Below, piece after piece: positions 4,709 to 15,084 of a stretch of 20,472 nucleotides of DNA. How positions within the stretch are numbered: the stretch's first letter is position 1; each line of letters opens with the position of its first letter. Both the position numbers and the translations under genes were made by a program. Origin of the DNA: a virus; the IMG/VR virus record IMGVR_UViG_3300029892_000023, positions 1 to 20,472 of that record. One strand, 5' to 3'. Below the pieces are notes generated by a model. The model did not search any database and was not told the origin of the DNA. It worked only from the letters and a program-made list of their open reading frames with translations.

Positions 4709-5180
4709 GCGTGTCGCCGCGCTTCTGGCCTACAACCCGGACACCGGCATCTTCACCTGGAAGGTAGCGAGAGGTTGCGCCCCCAAAGGCTCGCCGGCCG
4801 GCACGGTCATGGGCAACGGGTATATCAGCATCCGCGTGGATGGTGTTCGCTACCTTGCACACCGCCTCGCCTGGCTGTTGATCCACGGCGAGTGGCCCAA
4901 GGGTGAGGTCGACCACATCAATGGCAGCCGCTACGACAACCGGATCGAGAACCTTCGCGACGTTCCGCGCAGCCTGAACCAGCAAAACCAAACCCGTGCG
5001 CAGGCCGGCAATTCGACCGGCGCGCTGGGGGTTTCCACGGCCGACGCGAAAGGCCGCTTTCGCGCCCGCATTTTCATCAATGGCAAACAGCACCACCTCG
5101 GTACGTTCAAGACCGTGGAGGAAGCAAGCCGCGCCTATGTCACGGCCAAGCGCCAACTGCACCAGGGAGGGGTTATCTAA
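4701..5180 (+). CDS. HNH endonuclease with C-terminal AP2 DNA-binding domain
   Basis: In this 159-residue protein the HNH core reads HRLAWLLIHGEWP (H54) followed by EVDHINGSRYDNRIENLRD (D71, H72, N74, N80, N84). The C-terminal ~45 residues (GALGVSTADAKGRFRARIFI, then HHLGTFKTVEEASRAY) form an AP2/ERF-type DNA-binding domain. HNH-AP2 proteins are usually free-standing homing endonucleases of phages: they nick or cut DNA and spread with their gene. It is inserted between the polymerase and VRR-NUC genes, a typical homing position. A GGAGG precedes the ATG at good spacing. No intron or interrupted gene is seen beside it. A genuine replication or packaging role is a less likely alternative. Confidence 0.9.
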   Translation: MRERVAALLAYNPDTGIFTWKVARGCAPKGSPAGTVMGNGYISIRVDGVRYLAHRLAWLLIHGEWPKGEVDHINGSRYDNRIENLRDVPRSLNQQNQTRAQAGNSTGALGVSTADAKGRFRARIFINGKQHHLGTFKTVEEASRAYVTAKRQLHQGGVI

Positions 5181-5444
5181 ATGCGCGAATCACAGATTGA
5201 AAACTATCTCGTCGAGCGGGTGAAAGCCTTGGGCGGCGAATGTCGGAAGCTGCGGTGGATTGGCCGCAACGGTGCGCCCGACCGTATCGTCATGCTCAAC
5301 GGGCAAGTGATCTTTATCGAACTCAAGGCGCCCGGCGAGAAGGCCAAGCCGCACCAGGTACGTGAGCACGAGCGCATGCGCCGCATGGGCCAGCGCGTCG
5401 AGGTCGTCGATTCCTTTGAGCGCGTCGACGAGGTGCTGGCATGA
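5181..5444 (+). CDS. VRR-NUC domain nuclease
   Basis: This 87-residue minimal VRR-NUC protein of the PD-(D/E)XK superfamily has the pattern GAPDR (P33, D34), then VIFIELKAPG (E47-x-K49) and a downstream HQ (Q59). The family includes stand-alone phage Holliday-junction or flap nucleases. The start ATG is directly after the TAA of the HNH gene and its 3' end overlaps the next start by four bases. In this replication cassette it probably processes branched recombination or replication intermediates; the exact substrate is inferred. Confidence 0.9.
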   Translation: MRESQIENYLVERVKALGGECRKLRWIGRNGAPDRIVMLNGQVIFIELKAPGEKAKPHQVREHERMRRMGQRVEVVDSFERVDEVLA

Positions 5445-5716
5445 AGATAGCGATCCCTGAAAACGTCACGAATTCGCTACGCTTCAAGGTCGGCGACCTG
5501 TACGCCGCTGGTGGCAACAGCAGCAACACCGCCTTCTGGTTGGTTGTCGCCATCACCGAGCGCGGCGGTGCGCACCTGTTGGGCCTGAATGAGGCCGGCG
5601 AGATTGTCAGCACGGCCAGCTACAACGCCCACGCCATCGAATCGCGCCGCAAGGTGGGCCACTGCCCACAAGTCGCAAGCATGACGCTGCACGTTGAAAG
5701 CGAGGTGCTGACATGA
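5441..5716 (+). CDS. Hypothetical phage protein, 91 aa
   Basis: The frame overlaps both neighbours by four bases (ATGA at 5441 and at 5713), so translation is probably coupled. The protein is predicted soluble and beta-rich, with segments FKVGDLYAAGG, FWLVVAITERGGAHLLGLNE and a C-terminal VESEVLT. No catalytic motif or known domain is recognised. Position between the VRR-NUC and dCMP deaminase genes suggests an early accessory role only. Confidence 0.75.
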   Translation: MKIAIPENVTNSLRFKVGDLYAAGGNSSNTAFWLVVAITERGGAHLLGLNEAGEIVSTASYNAHAIESRRKVGHCPQVASMTLHVESEVLT

Positions 5717-6153
5717 GCAAGTGGGACCGCCGCATGTTGGGCCTGGTGAATCTCATCGCCACGTGGAGTAAAGACCCGAGCACGGGCGTGGGCGCCGTGA
5801 TCGTGGATGCCAAGAACCGGGTTGTCTCGCTGGGCTACAACGGATTCCCGCGCGCCGTGTGCGACTCCGACGAGGCCCTGTTCGACCGGGACGAGAAGCT
5901 GCGCCGCACCATCCACGCCGAGGAAAACGCCCTGCTGTTCGCGCGCGGCCCGGTGGAGGGTTGCACCCTCTACGTGACACACCCGCCCTGCGCCCGCTGC
6001 GCGGCCAAGCTGATACAGGCCGGCATTGCCCGCGTCGTCGCGCAGATGCCTGCCGAGGGCTTCGGCGAGCGCTGGGCCGACGACATGCGCAGCGCCTCGG
6101 CCATGTTCCTGGAAGCCGGTGTCGGCTTCGAATACGTGGAGGCCCGGCAATGA
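5713..6153 (+). CDS. Deoxycytidylate (dCMP) deaminase
   Basis: This 146-residue zinc-dependent deaminase converts dCMP to dUMP, feeding thymidylate synthesis for phage replication. The zinc site is visible as HAE (H68, E70) and PPCARC (C93, C96). The substrate-type segment GAVIVDAKNRVVSLGYNGFP (27-46) is typical of dCMP deaminases rather than cytidine deaminases. Length fits the family. No thymidylate synthase is seen in this window. The gene overlaps both flanking genes by four bases. Confidence 0.92.
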   Translation: MSKWDRRMLGLVNLIATWSKDPSTGVGAVIVDAKNRVVSLGYNGFPRAVCDSDEALFDRDEKLRRTIHAEENALLFARGPVEGCTLYVTHPPCARCAAKLIQAGIARVVAQMPAEGFGERWADDMRSASAMFLEAGVGFEYVEARQ

Positions 6154-11885: not shown

Positions 11886-12361
11886 AGCTTGGCCCCCTCG
11901 GTGAAGAGGTCGTCGAGTTGGGCACTGGTCCAGCCGAACGCGGCCGACAGTGCAGCCGCCAGGGGCGAGTCCCGGCGCACTTCCTGGGCGTATTCCCATT
12001 CGATGCGGGCCGCGTCGCCCTCGGTGCCGGGCATGTTGGCCACGGCGGTATTGACCTGGGCCAGCAGGCCGGCGCCGAGCAGCGCGAGGCGAGCCTGCCG
12101 CATGGTCACGACCTCGGGCACGGCAACAACCGCCGGCACATATTCGGGCAATGCCGGCGGCTGCGCGTCCGGGAAGTCGGCGCGGGTGAAGTTAAAGCGC
12201 TCGATGGTCGAGTTGTCCTCGATGGCGACCCAGGCTTGCGCCGTGTCGTCCTTTTCCAAGCGCCACAAAGTACCCGCCAGCAGGGCCATGAAGGCGACGT
12301 GCTCGGGCGTGCCGGCAATCGCGTCCAAGTCCTCGCGGGTGTTAATGGAGGGCAATCCCAT
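11882..12361 (-). CDS. Hypothetical tail-fibre-associated protein, 159 aa
   Basis: The C-terminal third (MRQARLALLGAGLLAQVNTA, then RIEWEYAQEVRRDSPL) resembles a common phage module encoded next to tail fibres and often annotated as fibre assembly or XkdW-like. The N-terminal part (DLDAIAGTPEHVAFMALLAG) occurs in related proteins. The first 20 bases overlap the 3' end of the reverse-transcriptase gene, so the two may be translationally coupled. It could be a chaperone for the receptor-binding protein, but that is inference. Confidence 0.75.
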   Translation of the reverse strand: MGLPSINTREDLDAIAGTPEHVAFMALLAGTLWRLEKDDTAQAWVAIEDNSTIERFNFTRADFPDAQPPALPEYVPAVVAVPEVVTMRQARLALLGAGLLAQVNTAVANMPGTEGDAARIEWEYAQEVRRDSPLAAALSAAFGWTSAQLDDLFTEGAKL

Positions 12362-13328
12362 GTCGATTCTCCAGCCAGGTAAAAAGGTGATTGGCGTCGG
12401 CCCACATCGCGTGGCCGGACCATGAGGCGAGAAACTTTTGCAGCCCCTCGTCCTCGCCGTGTTTGATGAAGTTGGCGACCTTGCGCTTGGCGCGGGTCAC
12501 AGAGTCTTTGCGCAGCAGCTTGTGGCTGGGCCAGATGCGATAGCCCAGGAAGTTGATGCCGCGCGAAATCGGGGCAACCTGCCAATGGCTGATGCGCAGT
12601 TTCAGGTGCTCGGCGGCGAAGTCGCGCAGGTTGTAGAACACCTGGCGCAGTTCCTCAGGGTCGTCGCCCAGCACCACGATGTCGTCCATGTAGCGCGCCC
12701 AATGGCGCCGCTTGAGGTCGTGCTGCAGGAACTGGTCGACGGCGTTGCCGTAGATGTTGGCGAACAGTTGCGAGGTCAGGCTCCCGATGGGAATGCCGAC
12801 GCCTTCCTCGGGCAGCATTTCGCGCAGCAGCCGGCGCGTGGCCGCGCAGTGGATTTTCTTGTCGAGCATCCGGTACAGGGCCGCGTGCTCGACGCTCGGA
12901 AAGAACTTCGAGAAATCCGACTTCATGAAGTGGGTCGCCTTGGTGCGGCGCAATTCGGCCTGCACATGACGGACACCCGCGTGCGTCCCTTTGCCGGGGC
13001 GGCAGGCGAAGGTATAGGGCAGCATGCCGGCCTCGAAGATGGGCGCGATGATGTTGCAGGTAGCGTGCTGCACCAGGCGGTCCTTGAAGTCCAGGGCGGA
13101 AATCATCCGGGCCTTGGGCTCGTAAATCAGGAACTCCCGATAGGGGCCGCGCTTGTAGCTGCCATCCAGCAATTCAGCCTGCACGGCCAGCAGATTGGCG
13201 AGGTCGTATTCCTTGAATTCCAGATAACCCCACGTCCGGCGCTTGCCGTTGGAGGTCTTGCGGTAGGCGTCGACCAGGTTGTCCCACGCTGCGATCTGCT
13301 GGATTAAATTTCTGTTGCGTTTGCTCAT
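12342..13328 (-). CDS. brt: Diversity-generating retroelement reverse transcriptase
   Basis: This 328-residue RT has the catalytic YMDD at 213-216, the first palm Asp in KSDFSKFFPS (D138) and the DGR-typical IGSLTSQ (181-187) in place of the QG-x-x-x-SP of group II intron RTs. It also has RPGKGTH (110-116) and LGYRIWP (261-267). No maturase, endonuclease or RNase H domain is present. It copies the template-repeat RNA into adenine-mutated cDNA that replaces the variable repeat in the tail-tip gene. The ATG at 13328 is preferred: the frame stays open upstream to 13961, but that stretch runs through the TR and the avd gene and has no RT homology. The SD before this ATG is weak. Confidence 0.96.
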   Translation of the reverse strand: MSKRNRNLIQQIAAWDNLVDAYRKTSNGKRRTWGYLEFKEYDLANLLAVQAELLDGSYKRGPYREFLIYEPKARMISALDFKDRLVQHATCNIIAPIFEAGMLPYTFACRPGKGTHAGVRHVQAELRRTKATHFMKSDFSKFFPSVEHAALYRMLDKKIHCAATRRLLREMLPEEGVGIPIGSLTSQLFANIYGNAVDQFLQHDLKRRHWARYMDDIVVLGDDPEELRQVFYNLRDFAAEHLKLRISHWQVAPISRGINFLGYRIWPSHKLLRKDSVTRAKRKVANFIKHGEDEGLQKFLASWSGHAMWADANHLFTWLENRHGIALH

Positions 13329-13482: not shown

Positions 13483-13603
13483 GTGGACACAGACGCCGCG
13501 CGCCCCGATGTTGTTGTTCGAGTTCGTGGGCGAGTTATTCCAATTCGAACAACGAGAACCGGACTCAGTCGTGTTGCCCCAGTTGCCCCCAAGGAGGACG
13601 GCG
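13483..13603 (-). repeat. DGR template repeat (TR)
   Basis: 121 bp match the VR at a constant offset of 552 bp with 19 mismatches and no gaps. Read on the minus strand it translates through NWGNTTESGSRCSNWNNSPT and NSNNNIGARGVC. It is rich in AAY (Asn) codons, the hallmark of templates designed so that adenine mutagenesis changes amino acids without creating stops. It starts directly after the avd stop (13604-13606) and lies 154 bases before the RT start, as in BPP-1-type DGRs. By hand count it has 24 sense adenines, 9 of which differ in the VR. Confidence 0.95.
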
Positions 13604-13987
13604 CTATTTCCCGGATTGCCCTTTGCGTCCCACGCGGACTATCCAAGCCCCGAGAATCCGCCCCACCTCCGCTATCAGCACTTGTGCTGTTTCGACCTGA
13701 TGGGGAGTCATCGCGCGAACTTTTCCACCCGCGAGAAACCGCAACCAAAACCGCAGCATGGCAAGACCGGCGTCCGCTGCGTACAGCTTGCTGACCTGGT
13801 TCGACTTGCCCGCCACGATGAATAATTCGACCTGCCCGAGCAGGCACTCCAAAAACATATTGCGTGCTACGCCGTGCGCCCTCGGGAGACTTTGCGCAAT
13901 GGGATACAGGTACGAAATTACCTTTTCGTACTTCTCCACAATGAGCATTTGGTCGTAGCATTTAACGCCTTCCTCTATTGGTTCCAT
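13604..13987 (-). CDS. avd: DGR accessory variability determinant (Avd-like four-helix protein)
   Basis: This 127-residue, almost all-helical protein (VEKYEKVISYLYPIAQSL, RNMFLECLLGQVELFIVAGK, LYAADAGLAMLRFWLRFLAG, VETAQVLIAEVGRILGAWIV) matches the four-helix-bundle Avd type. It has a basic C-terminus. In BPP-1, Avd forms a pentamer that binds RT and template RNA and is required for cDNA synthesis and retrohoming. It lies between the VR hairpin and the TR, its usual place. No clear Shine-Dalgarno precedes the ATG at 13987; translation may depend on the upstream gene. Base composition is visibly less GC-rich than that of the neighbours. Confidence 0.9.
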   Translation of the reverse strand: MEPIEEGVKCYDQMLIVEKYEKVISYLYPIAQSLPRAHGVARNMFLECLLGQVELFIVAGKSNQVSKLYAADAGLAMLRFWLRFLAGGKVRAMTPHQVETAQVLIAEVGRILGAWIVRVGRKGQSGK

Positions 13988-14000
13988 GCGCTTAGTACAG

Positions 14001-14020
14001 GCGGGGCCTTTCGGCCCCGC
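14001..14020 (-). other. DGR target-site hairpin/cruciform downstream of VR
   Basis: A perfect 8-bp GC stem (14001-14008 with 14013-14020) has a GAAA tetraloop in the sense direction. It lies 14 bases past the VR end, and its first base is the last base of the target gene's TAG stop. BPP-1 has an 8-bp stem with a GAAA loop just after its VR that promotes retrohoming. No T-run follows, which argues against a terminator. Confidence 0.88.
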
Positions 14021-15084
14021 TAATCAAGGATCAGGTGGTCACAGACGCCGCGCGCCCCGATGTGGTTGTTCGAGAACGTGGGCGAGATGGGCCAGTACGA
14101 GGCACGCGAACCGGAGTTCGACGTGTTGCCCCAGTCGCCCCCAAGGAGGACGGCGTTTTCCATCTGGTACGTGGAACCACGCCCGCCCGTGTTGGCCGTC
14201 CAGCTTGCCGCTGCTGCCCCACCGCCGAACTCGTCGCCCCAGACCCACATGCAGCCAGATGACTGGATGCATCCCCATTTTGAGGTGTAGGCGGCATTCA
14301 GGACGGTGCTTCCTTGATCGGTGCCGACAGAACTTGCCTCGGTTGTACCGTAGGCCAACGCGGCAAATTCGTCATAGGTCGGCGAACGCTTGCCCCACGA
14401 TTTCAGAACTTCATTGGCTTCCCACCAGTTCATACTGGCATAGGCGCTTGTTCCGTTACCGCCGAACTTCGTGGGGATCTTCGGCGGGCTGCTGCCGTCG
14501 GCAATGGTCACGTTGTACTTGGATGTGCCATTGGTCAGGTGATCGACACCCAAAAGATAGATGTCAGACCAGAACGAGTCAGCTACCAGCGTCATGCCGC
14601 GCGGGTCCGGGCATGCCGGGCGGAACTTCAAGTCCCAGAACGAGTAGGCATTGATGGCCGGCGTAGTGTCACCGCCCGCTTGCGCAGCAGCGTTGCCACC
14701 CGGCGCGTAGTGGAATCCGCCGATCTTGCGCCAGTTGCCAGCGCCTGGTGCTGACGTGTGGCTGCTGGATGCCTGAATGGTCGCATCATCTTTGAGCCAG
14801 ATGGCGTAGTCGGTGCCAGCCGTGAGCGTCGGCATGGTGATTGCGGTATCGGCTGCAAACTGCACCAGCGTACCGGCCACATCAACTTTGGTGCCTGCCT
14901 TGATACTGGCAGCGCCGGCAGCGGTTTTGGTGAAAGCAACGGCTGCCGGATCTGCTTTGACAAACAGGCCGTAGGCCGGAACAGAGGCAAAGCCGCCGCG
15001 CGGCACGGTGACATTGACGTTCCCGGCGCCATCTTCCGGGACAAGGGTGATGGAGCCGCTGGCTGAATCAAGTTGCATGGACAT
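14020..15084 (-). CDS. mtd: DGR-diversified receptor-binding tail protein (Mtd-like, C-type lectin fold)
   Basis: This 354-residue protein has an N-terminal beta-rich part (DSASGSITLVPEDGAGNVNV) resembling the trimerisation region of Bordetella phage Mtd (381 aa). The C-terminal half is a formylglycine-generating-enzyme/C-type lectin fold (MNWWEANEVLKSWGKRSPTY, GCMWVWGDEFGGG, IGARGVC). The last 40 residues before LILD (311-350) are the variable repeat. Differences from the template fall at residues 317, 322, 323, 328, 330, 332, 333, 337, 341 and 349, with the WG, SGSR, SPT and IGARGVC scaffold kept. It sits at the tail tip and binds the host receptor; diversification changes host tropism. AGGAG lies six bases before the ATG. 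Confidence 0.93.
   Translation of the reverse strand: MSMQLDSASGSITLVPEDGAGNVNVTVPRGGFASVPAYGLFVKADPAAVAFTKTAAGAASIKAGTKVDVAGTLVQFAADTAITMPTLTAGTDYAIWLKDDATIQASSSHTSAPGAGNWRKIGGFHYAPGGNAAAQAGGDTTPAINAYSFWDLKFRPACPDPRGMTLVADSFWSDIYLLGVDHLTNGTSKYNVTIADGSSPPKIPTKFGGNGTSAYASMNWWEANEVLKSWGKRSPTYDEFAALAYGTTEASSVGTDQGSTVLNAAYTSKWGCIQSSGCMWVWGDEFGGGAAAASWTANTGGRGSTYQMENAVLLGGDWGNTSNSGSRASYWPISPTFSNNHIGARGVCDHLILD
14035..14155 (-). repeat. DGR variable repeat (VR) with 3' IMH-like block
   Basis: This is the ungapped partner of the TR (102 of 121 identical), forming the 3' end of the receptor-binding gene. The 3' sense end (14040-14063) is a 24-bp GC-rich block identical to the TR and would serve as the IMH that marks where cDNA integration begins. 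Just beyond it, a single sense A (VR) against T (TR) at 14039/13487 may distinguish IMH from the TR-side IMH*. The hairpin follows 14 bases later. Confidence 0.94.

Follow-up and report, generated by a model that had tools for sequence, protein, structure and literature searches.

Diversity-generating retroelements (DGRs) are recognized in part by a variable repeat (VR) that differs from its template repeat (TR) almost only at adenines. The locus studied here raises the question of what it means when a VR departs from the resident TR at adenines and at other bases alike. It lies in IMG/VR virus record IMGVR_UViG_3300029892_000023. We analyzed the whole record, a stretch of 20,472 bases that may be a genome fragment and that we refer to as the window.

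A putative BPP-1-type DGR with an atypical repeat pair

The cassette is read on the minus strand in the order mtd-like gene, avd, TR and reverse transcriptase (RT, or brt) (Table 1), and by homology it is a relative of the Bordetella phage BPP-1 DGR, a machinery that would diversify the tip of the phage's tail protein. In a blastn search it matched the BPP-1 group of Bordetella phages at 76% identity over 94% of the cassette, and its RT is 81% identical in amino acids to the BPP-1 RT and 80-81% identical across the BPP-1 group RTs. The mtd product matches the second domain of Mtd in Pfam (E 1e-21), and a phmmer search of PDB sequences recovered BPP-1 Mtd structures at E 5e-120 or better, with homology spanning residues 39-354. 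The remaining defining features of a DGR were found as well. The TR sits between avd and an RT with an RVT_1 match, the accessory gene avd is recognizable, and the VR is at the 3′ end of a gene that Mtd homology predicts to encode a C-type-lectin target, where it ends at the stop codon. The IMH/IMH* and downstream hairpin are represented by a GC-only run, a 21-bp element that differs between the repeats, and a fold with a z score of -4.7. At the edge of the record (1-129 of the window) there are also four copies of a 27-nt direct repeat.

Table 1. Features of the cassette in the window, with positions given on the whole stretch.
Feature	Position	Strand	Remarks
mtd-like target gene	14020..15084	-	354 aa; probable imported part of the cassette
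avd	13604..13987	-	127 aa; Pfam bAvd E 6e-35
Reverse transcriptase (brt)	12342..13328	-	328 aa; Pfam RVT_1 E 7e-22
Template repeat (TR)	13483..13603	-	native to the avd-brt lineage
Variable repeat (VR)	14035..14155	-	ungapped 121-bp alignment with TR
TR core block with clustered non-A differences	13537..13567	-	ancestral, not rewritten (L003 TR; imprints in L066/L083 and L084 VRs)
VR block with putative foreign-template imprint	14089..14119	-	9 non-A differences from resident TR
5′ patch	14145..14149	-	three bases of resident-lineage type between donor-type DNA; alignment of relatives
(GC)14-like GC-only run of VR	14046..14059	-	seen in the sequence
21-bp IMH element	14025..14045	-	donor-type T at 14030 (C in L083, L085)
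Hairpin GCGGGGCC-GAAA-GGCCCCGC after VR	14001..14020	-	native type; 8-bp stem, 4-nt loop

The feature that departs from expectation is the comparison of the VR with the resident TR. Over 121 ungapped bp the two differ at 19 positions, 9 of them among the 24 TR adenines and 10 at other bases. These counts agree exactly with the original prediction, which had also held that adenine sites are enriched among the differences (Fisher p 0.003). The non-A differences are at 13567, 13566, 13564, 13555, 13551, 13550, 13549, 13543, 13537 and 13487. The clustering described earlier is real, with nine of the ten inside the 31-nt span 13537-13567 (p 0.0002 by sampling), and the codon changes are as claimed, TR GAG (Glu) being AAC (Asn) in the VR and TR TGT (Cys) being GCC (Ala). 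The tenth difference, 13487, falls inside the 21-bp IMH/IMH* element, a stretch in which a mismatch between the repeats is expected. No third repeat copy or second TR was found within the 20,472-base record.

The VR fits the template of another lineage

Searches of viral contigs returned 64 loci by RT and 59 by mtd, partly on the same contigs, and a search of genome contigs returned 16. Self-comparison of the fetched loci gave 76 distinct repeat pairs including that of the window, and 50 loci had no pair above threshold. One pair, from L142, had seemed to be another outlier, with 3 A and 14 non-A differences. It was dropped because both of its repeats are VRs, partly N, that belong to two mtd genes in tandem; positions 4740-5950 of that locus hold the tandem mtd pair with two VRs, one of which contains Ns, and one TR alongside. 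The 75 TR/VR pairs kept include some from near-identical contigs and hence are not all independent. Among them the window is the most extreme, with 9 non-A core differences versus at most 4 in the other 74 pairs, which bears out the earlier view that its pattern is atypical.

Every VR was then compared with every TR over the core (VR index 33-103). The VR's own TR was strictly best in 64 of the 75 pairs, tied with another in 8 and worse in 3, these three being the window (9 vs 0 non-A differences), L019 (4 vs 1) and L023 (3 vs 2). A poor fit of L085, which is the same contig as L003, was set aside because it is due only to a 3-nt deletion in the VR relative to its TR. For the window, the best fit is to L041 (=L086, L094) and L051 (=L090), whose TRs are identical. 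Its VR core differs from these TRs at 8 A and 0 non-A positions, versus 8 A and 9 non-A from its own TR. Non-A differences are absent over VR index 11-116 and are confined to index 6 and 10 and, within the IMH element, index 117 and 118. Compared with the L041/L051 TR, the window VR thus shows the adenine-only pattern that it lacks beside its own. Excerpts of PMC12875486 state that programmed non-A changes in a TR are fully transferred on homing, a result in favour of taking the fixed bases of a VR as an imprint of its template. On this reading the VR appears to be the foreign part, bearing the template pattern of another phage. Because the remaining defining features of a DGR are present, we describe the window as a DGR cassette beside the target of another lineage and not as a matched TR/VR pair.

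The TR core of the window is native to its lineage and was not rewritten, since L003 (=L085) shares this core and the VRs of L066 (=L083) and L084 derive from such a core. The L003 TR is 96.7% identical to the window TR over 122 nt and carries the same block as 13537-13567, one base apart. The L003 VR fits that TR with the same fixed core, showing 9 changes at A and 1 elsewhere in the 89 nt of ungapped alignment. The VRs of L066/L083 and L084, which have no full cassette nearby, follow the window TR nearly A-only, fixed core and 5′ flank included, with 10 (L083) and 12 (L084) differences over 121 positions, mostly at adenines. We had also considered that the VR could be an older, all-AAC form of the resident TR, which had since drifted, and dropped this idea because L003, L066 and L084 show the present core to be native. 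The original prediction had proposed template exchange by recombination between related phages. Recombination between relatives is upheld, but the L003 TR and the VRs of L066/L083 and L084 indicate that it was the VR, together with mtd, that moved and not the template core.

mtd and avd-RT have different nearest relatives

The rest of the cassette has the same divided ancestry. At the protein level mtd is 92% identical to L051, 87% to L041 and 76% to L003, whereas avd is 98% identical to L003 and 69% to L041, and the RT 96% and 61%, respectively. In 200-nt bins, the DNA at 15699-14700 is 99-100% identical to L041, that at 14699-14300 is 94.5-95% identical to L051 and that at 13899-13500 is 98-98.5% identical to L003, with several switches of ancestry within mtd itself. 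Quick trees were built from the 60 loci in which mtd, avd and RT were all long enough, the other fetched loci being left out; 10 of the 60 rows have a stop inside a translated stretch, which was read as X. The nearest neighbours for mtd and for avd+RT differ in 41 of these 60 loci, and the discordance is strongest in the window. A fork joining the window with L090/L094/L089 had a support of 99 in the quick mtd tree and was not supported at 80 in the careful one. AU tests were run on 22 of the 60 loci, picked after the quick trees had been inspected. For mtd they rejected two groupings of the window, one with L003 at p 0.0185 and the other with its own RT clade at p 1e-13, and for avd+RT the grouping with L041/L051/L089 (p 2e-28); because the tested groups had been suggested by the sequence comparison itself, these p values are only descriptive.

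Apart from the partners of the window, the ten most discordant loci are L050, L099, L005, L004, L116, L107, L027, L052, L088 and L068, and in all ten the VR fits its own TR best. Their VRs may have been overwritten once a swap had taken place, or the swapped segment may not have reached the VR. Among the surveyed loci, the window alone still shows a swap in its VR.

Donor and resident sequence meet at the 3′ end of the VR

On the right-hand side, the window matches the native sequence, as in L083, at every position from the hairpin leftwards as far as VR index 126, and L041 sequence continues rightwards to index 131, so that the two overlap by 6 nt. The hairpin itself is identical in L066, one base off in L003 and different in L041/L051. 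At index 125 (14030) the window has a T, as do L041, L051 and L043, where L083 and L085 have a C. According to excerpts of Guo et al. 2011 (PMC3240598), cDNA integration in BPP-1 maps to the GC-only run, and 14030 is 3′ of that integration zone; a donor-type base there, although it is one SNP, therefore speaks for import of the VR DNA itself. A search for donor-type T joined to the native hairpin recovered L083 and L085 alone, each of which has C at this base, and so gave no second contig with the same join among the contigs scanned, from which the record of the window was possibly omitted.

For 84 nt just upstream of the VR, the mtd DNA shows no difference from L041. Resident-type bases nevertheless stand at three positions within 14145-14149, and the 5′ flank, GCCGTCCTCCTTGGGGGC, occurs among viral contigs only in L083 and L084. 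The patch is not a simple homing tract, because homing from the resident TR should start on the IMH side and include the core. Our guess is that it is a small recombination patch left from the former VR.

Related cassettes in other contigs

Two of the 16 loci from the genome-contig search are close, Pandoraea L067 (80%) and the Akkermansiaceae MAG L068 (69%), and a search of 398 genomes from the Pandoraea family yielded two matches (E 1e-70). No isolate showing the join was found among the genome contigs or these 398 genomes, and the L067 genome has no mtd match. L067 (Pandoraea nosoerga) and L006 (a virus record) both have an RT 80% identical to that of the window, with no nearby TR/VR repeat and no mtd match. 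A plasmid collection gave one short match to the cassette. Parts of the cassette are also matched by phage T7 records LR745707, LR745708 and LR745709; the last is annotated with a chimaeric tail fibre made by fusion, so this match is a laboratory construct.

Several of the surveyed loci have altered cassettes. In L019 (5737-5856) the TR bases that differ from the VR at non-A sites look private to the TR, and it is possible that this template changed after its last homing. The cassette of L065 (5865-5988) looks decayed, with a partial match to the RT and an apparent loss of adenines from its TR. mtd is often kept where the DGR machinery has been lost, as in L083 (=L066) at 670-890, L112, L095, L096, L127, L084, L102, L114 and L129; four contigs of 37.8-61.5 kb carry mtd and have no RT match. 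Internal deletions leave only a C-terminal RT stub, which is kept repeatedly across contigs, and in L083 avd codon 22 is fused to RT residue 277.

A probable import of the target and its alternatives

The mosaic sequence, the match to a foreign template and the discordant trees are direct observations. The explanation that we hold to be very probable is that this BPP-1-type DGR stands beside a target that was imported recently, by homologous recombination, and still carries the pattern of a foreign template. Recombination with an L041/L051-like phage would have imported mtd together with its VR, and a right-hand switch at the 3′ end of the VR would have left the native hairpin, avd, TR and brt in place. 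The imported VR would have been written by the donor TR, and its fixed non-adenine bases would follow the donor template with differences only at adenines. The resident element would have yet to copy its own TR across the VR core since the import. Once it does so, the non-A block should vanish in one step. The resident-type bases at 14145-14149, inside donor-type DNA, would need a second event. Three points are inferred: a single real phage carried this join, the import took place by homologous recombination, and the resident element remains able to act on the VR.

The main doubt about an imported target is assembly, as all of the evidence consists of metagenome contigs without reads. The contig could be a chimera of two phages, one supplying the tail and mtd half and the other the avd-TR-brt half, joined at the 3′ end of the VR, which is conserved. 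We regard this as unlikely, though as the most serious of the alternatives. The left part is L041/L051-like and the right part L003-like, and the switch coincides with the VR, where assemblers could join strains; the related contigs L093 and L097 stop inside the VR, which marks it as hard to assemble. Against a chimera, exact overlap between the sampled donor and native sequences is only 6 nt across the right-hand join and 14-20 nt around the 5′ patch, and the longest string shared in the 3′ part of the VR, 32 nt, is followed by the T/C difference. A chimera must also be weighed against the multiple switches within mtd itself and the frequent mtd-RT discordance in other contigs.

It is also conceivable, if improbable, that the VR core was written in trans by the template RNA of another phage during co-infection. 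In full, this would have cDNA of an L041-like TR written into the window VR during co-infection or double lysogeny while the rest of mtd came separately, a scenario to which we give slightly less credence still. According to the excerpts of PMC3240598, the BPP-1 machinery functions in trans and 8 bp of 5′ homology can suffice for it, and such writing would leave a resident-type 5′ flank, as at 14145-14149, plus an A-only core. However, 14030 is of donor type 3′ of the mapped zone, albeit a single SNP, and the 84 nt of L041 identity upstream of the VR would need DNA import anyway. If trans-writing were true, the template of a DGR would work beyond the phage genome that encodes it, and receptor-binding codes would be shuffled between lineages with no template DNA being exchanged. 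Two further accounts, both raised by the original prediction, are in our judgment barely tenable. One holds that rewriting or mutation changed the TR core after the last homing event, as the nine clustered non-A disagreements might suggest and as L019, where the odd bases seem to sit in the TR, may exemplify on a small scale; against it, the L003 TR has the same core, and the VRs of L066/L083 and L084 bear the imprint of that core. The other is an RT of relaxed specificity that miscopies other bases. Surveys do report some non-A substitutions (excerpts of PMC6642488), but against the L041/L051 template the differences are A-only over VR index 11-116, and L003, with an RT 96% identical, shows 9 A changes to 1 non-A, so this claim is not supported.

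Discussion

Import of the target by recombination gives non-A differences between TR and VR a specific origin in the window, namely exchange of the target gene. The portions of PMC6642488 consulted give non-A substitutions in 46.3% of TR-VR pairs, at about 1.5 per pair, and consider them underestimated. So far, such differences have been taken for underestimated substitution in PMC6642488 and have stood as outliers in PMC8144416. A simple test is whether the TR of another lineage fits the VR with adenine changes only. If the fixed bases of a VR record the template that last wrote it, then natural phage populations should make it possible to trace target swaps and how long they persist before being overwritten by the resident element. 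Such swaps would offer a phage a route to a ready-made receptor-binding protein while it keeps its own diversifying machine. A full-text literature search, taken at the level of titles and the starts of abstracts, gave no paper describing a VR written by the template of another lineage.

The closest known system is the BPP-1 DGR, with the order mtd-avd-TR-brt. The window resembles it in gene order, in Mtd, Avd and RT homology, in repeats of ~121-134 bp, and in the GC-only run, the IMH/IMH* and an 8-bp hairpin with a GAAA loop. It differs in that the VR of BPP-1 matches the resident TR, with 13 A and 0 non-A differences in the core, whereas the window VR fits that of another phage. Roux et al. 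2021 (PMC8144416), in the part available, list seven clusters of DGR outliers with <75% of mismatches at adenine. The window resembles these in its share at A (9/19) and, unlike them as described there, points to a cause, a target and a template of different lineages. Separate histories of RT and target gene were argued for Nanoarchaeota DGRs by Paul et al. 2015 (PMC4372165, excerpts), and there, as in the window, target and RT did not move as one unit. In the Nanoarchaeota this was concluded from composition and trees, whereas the window shows the donor lineage and the junction, together with the imprint that the template left behind.
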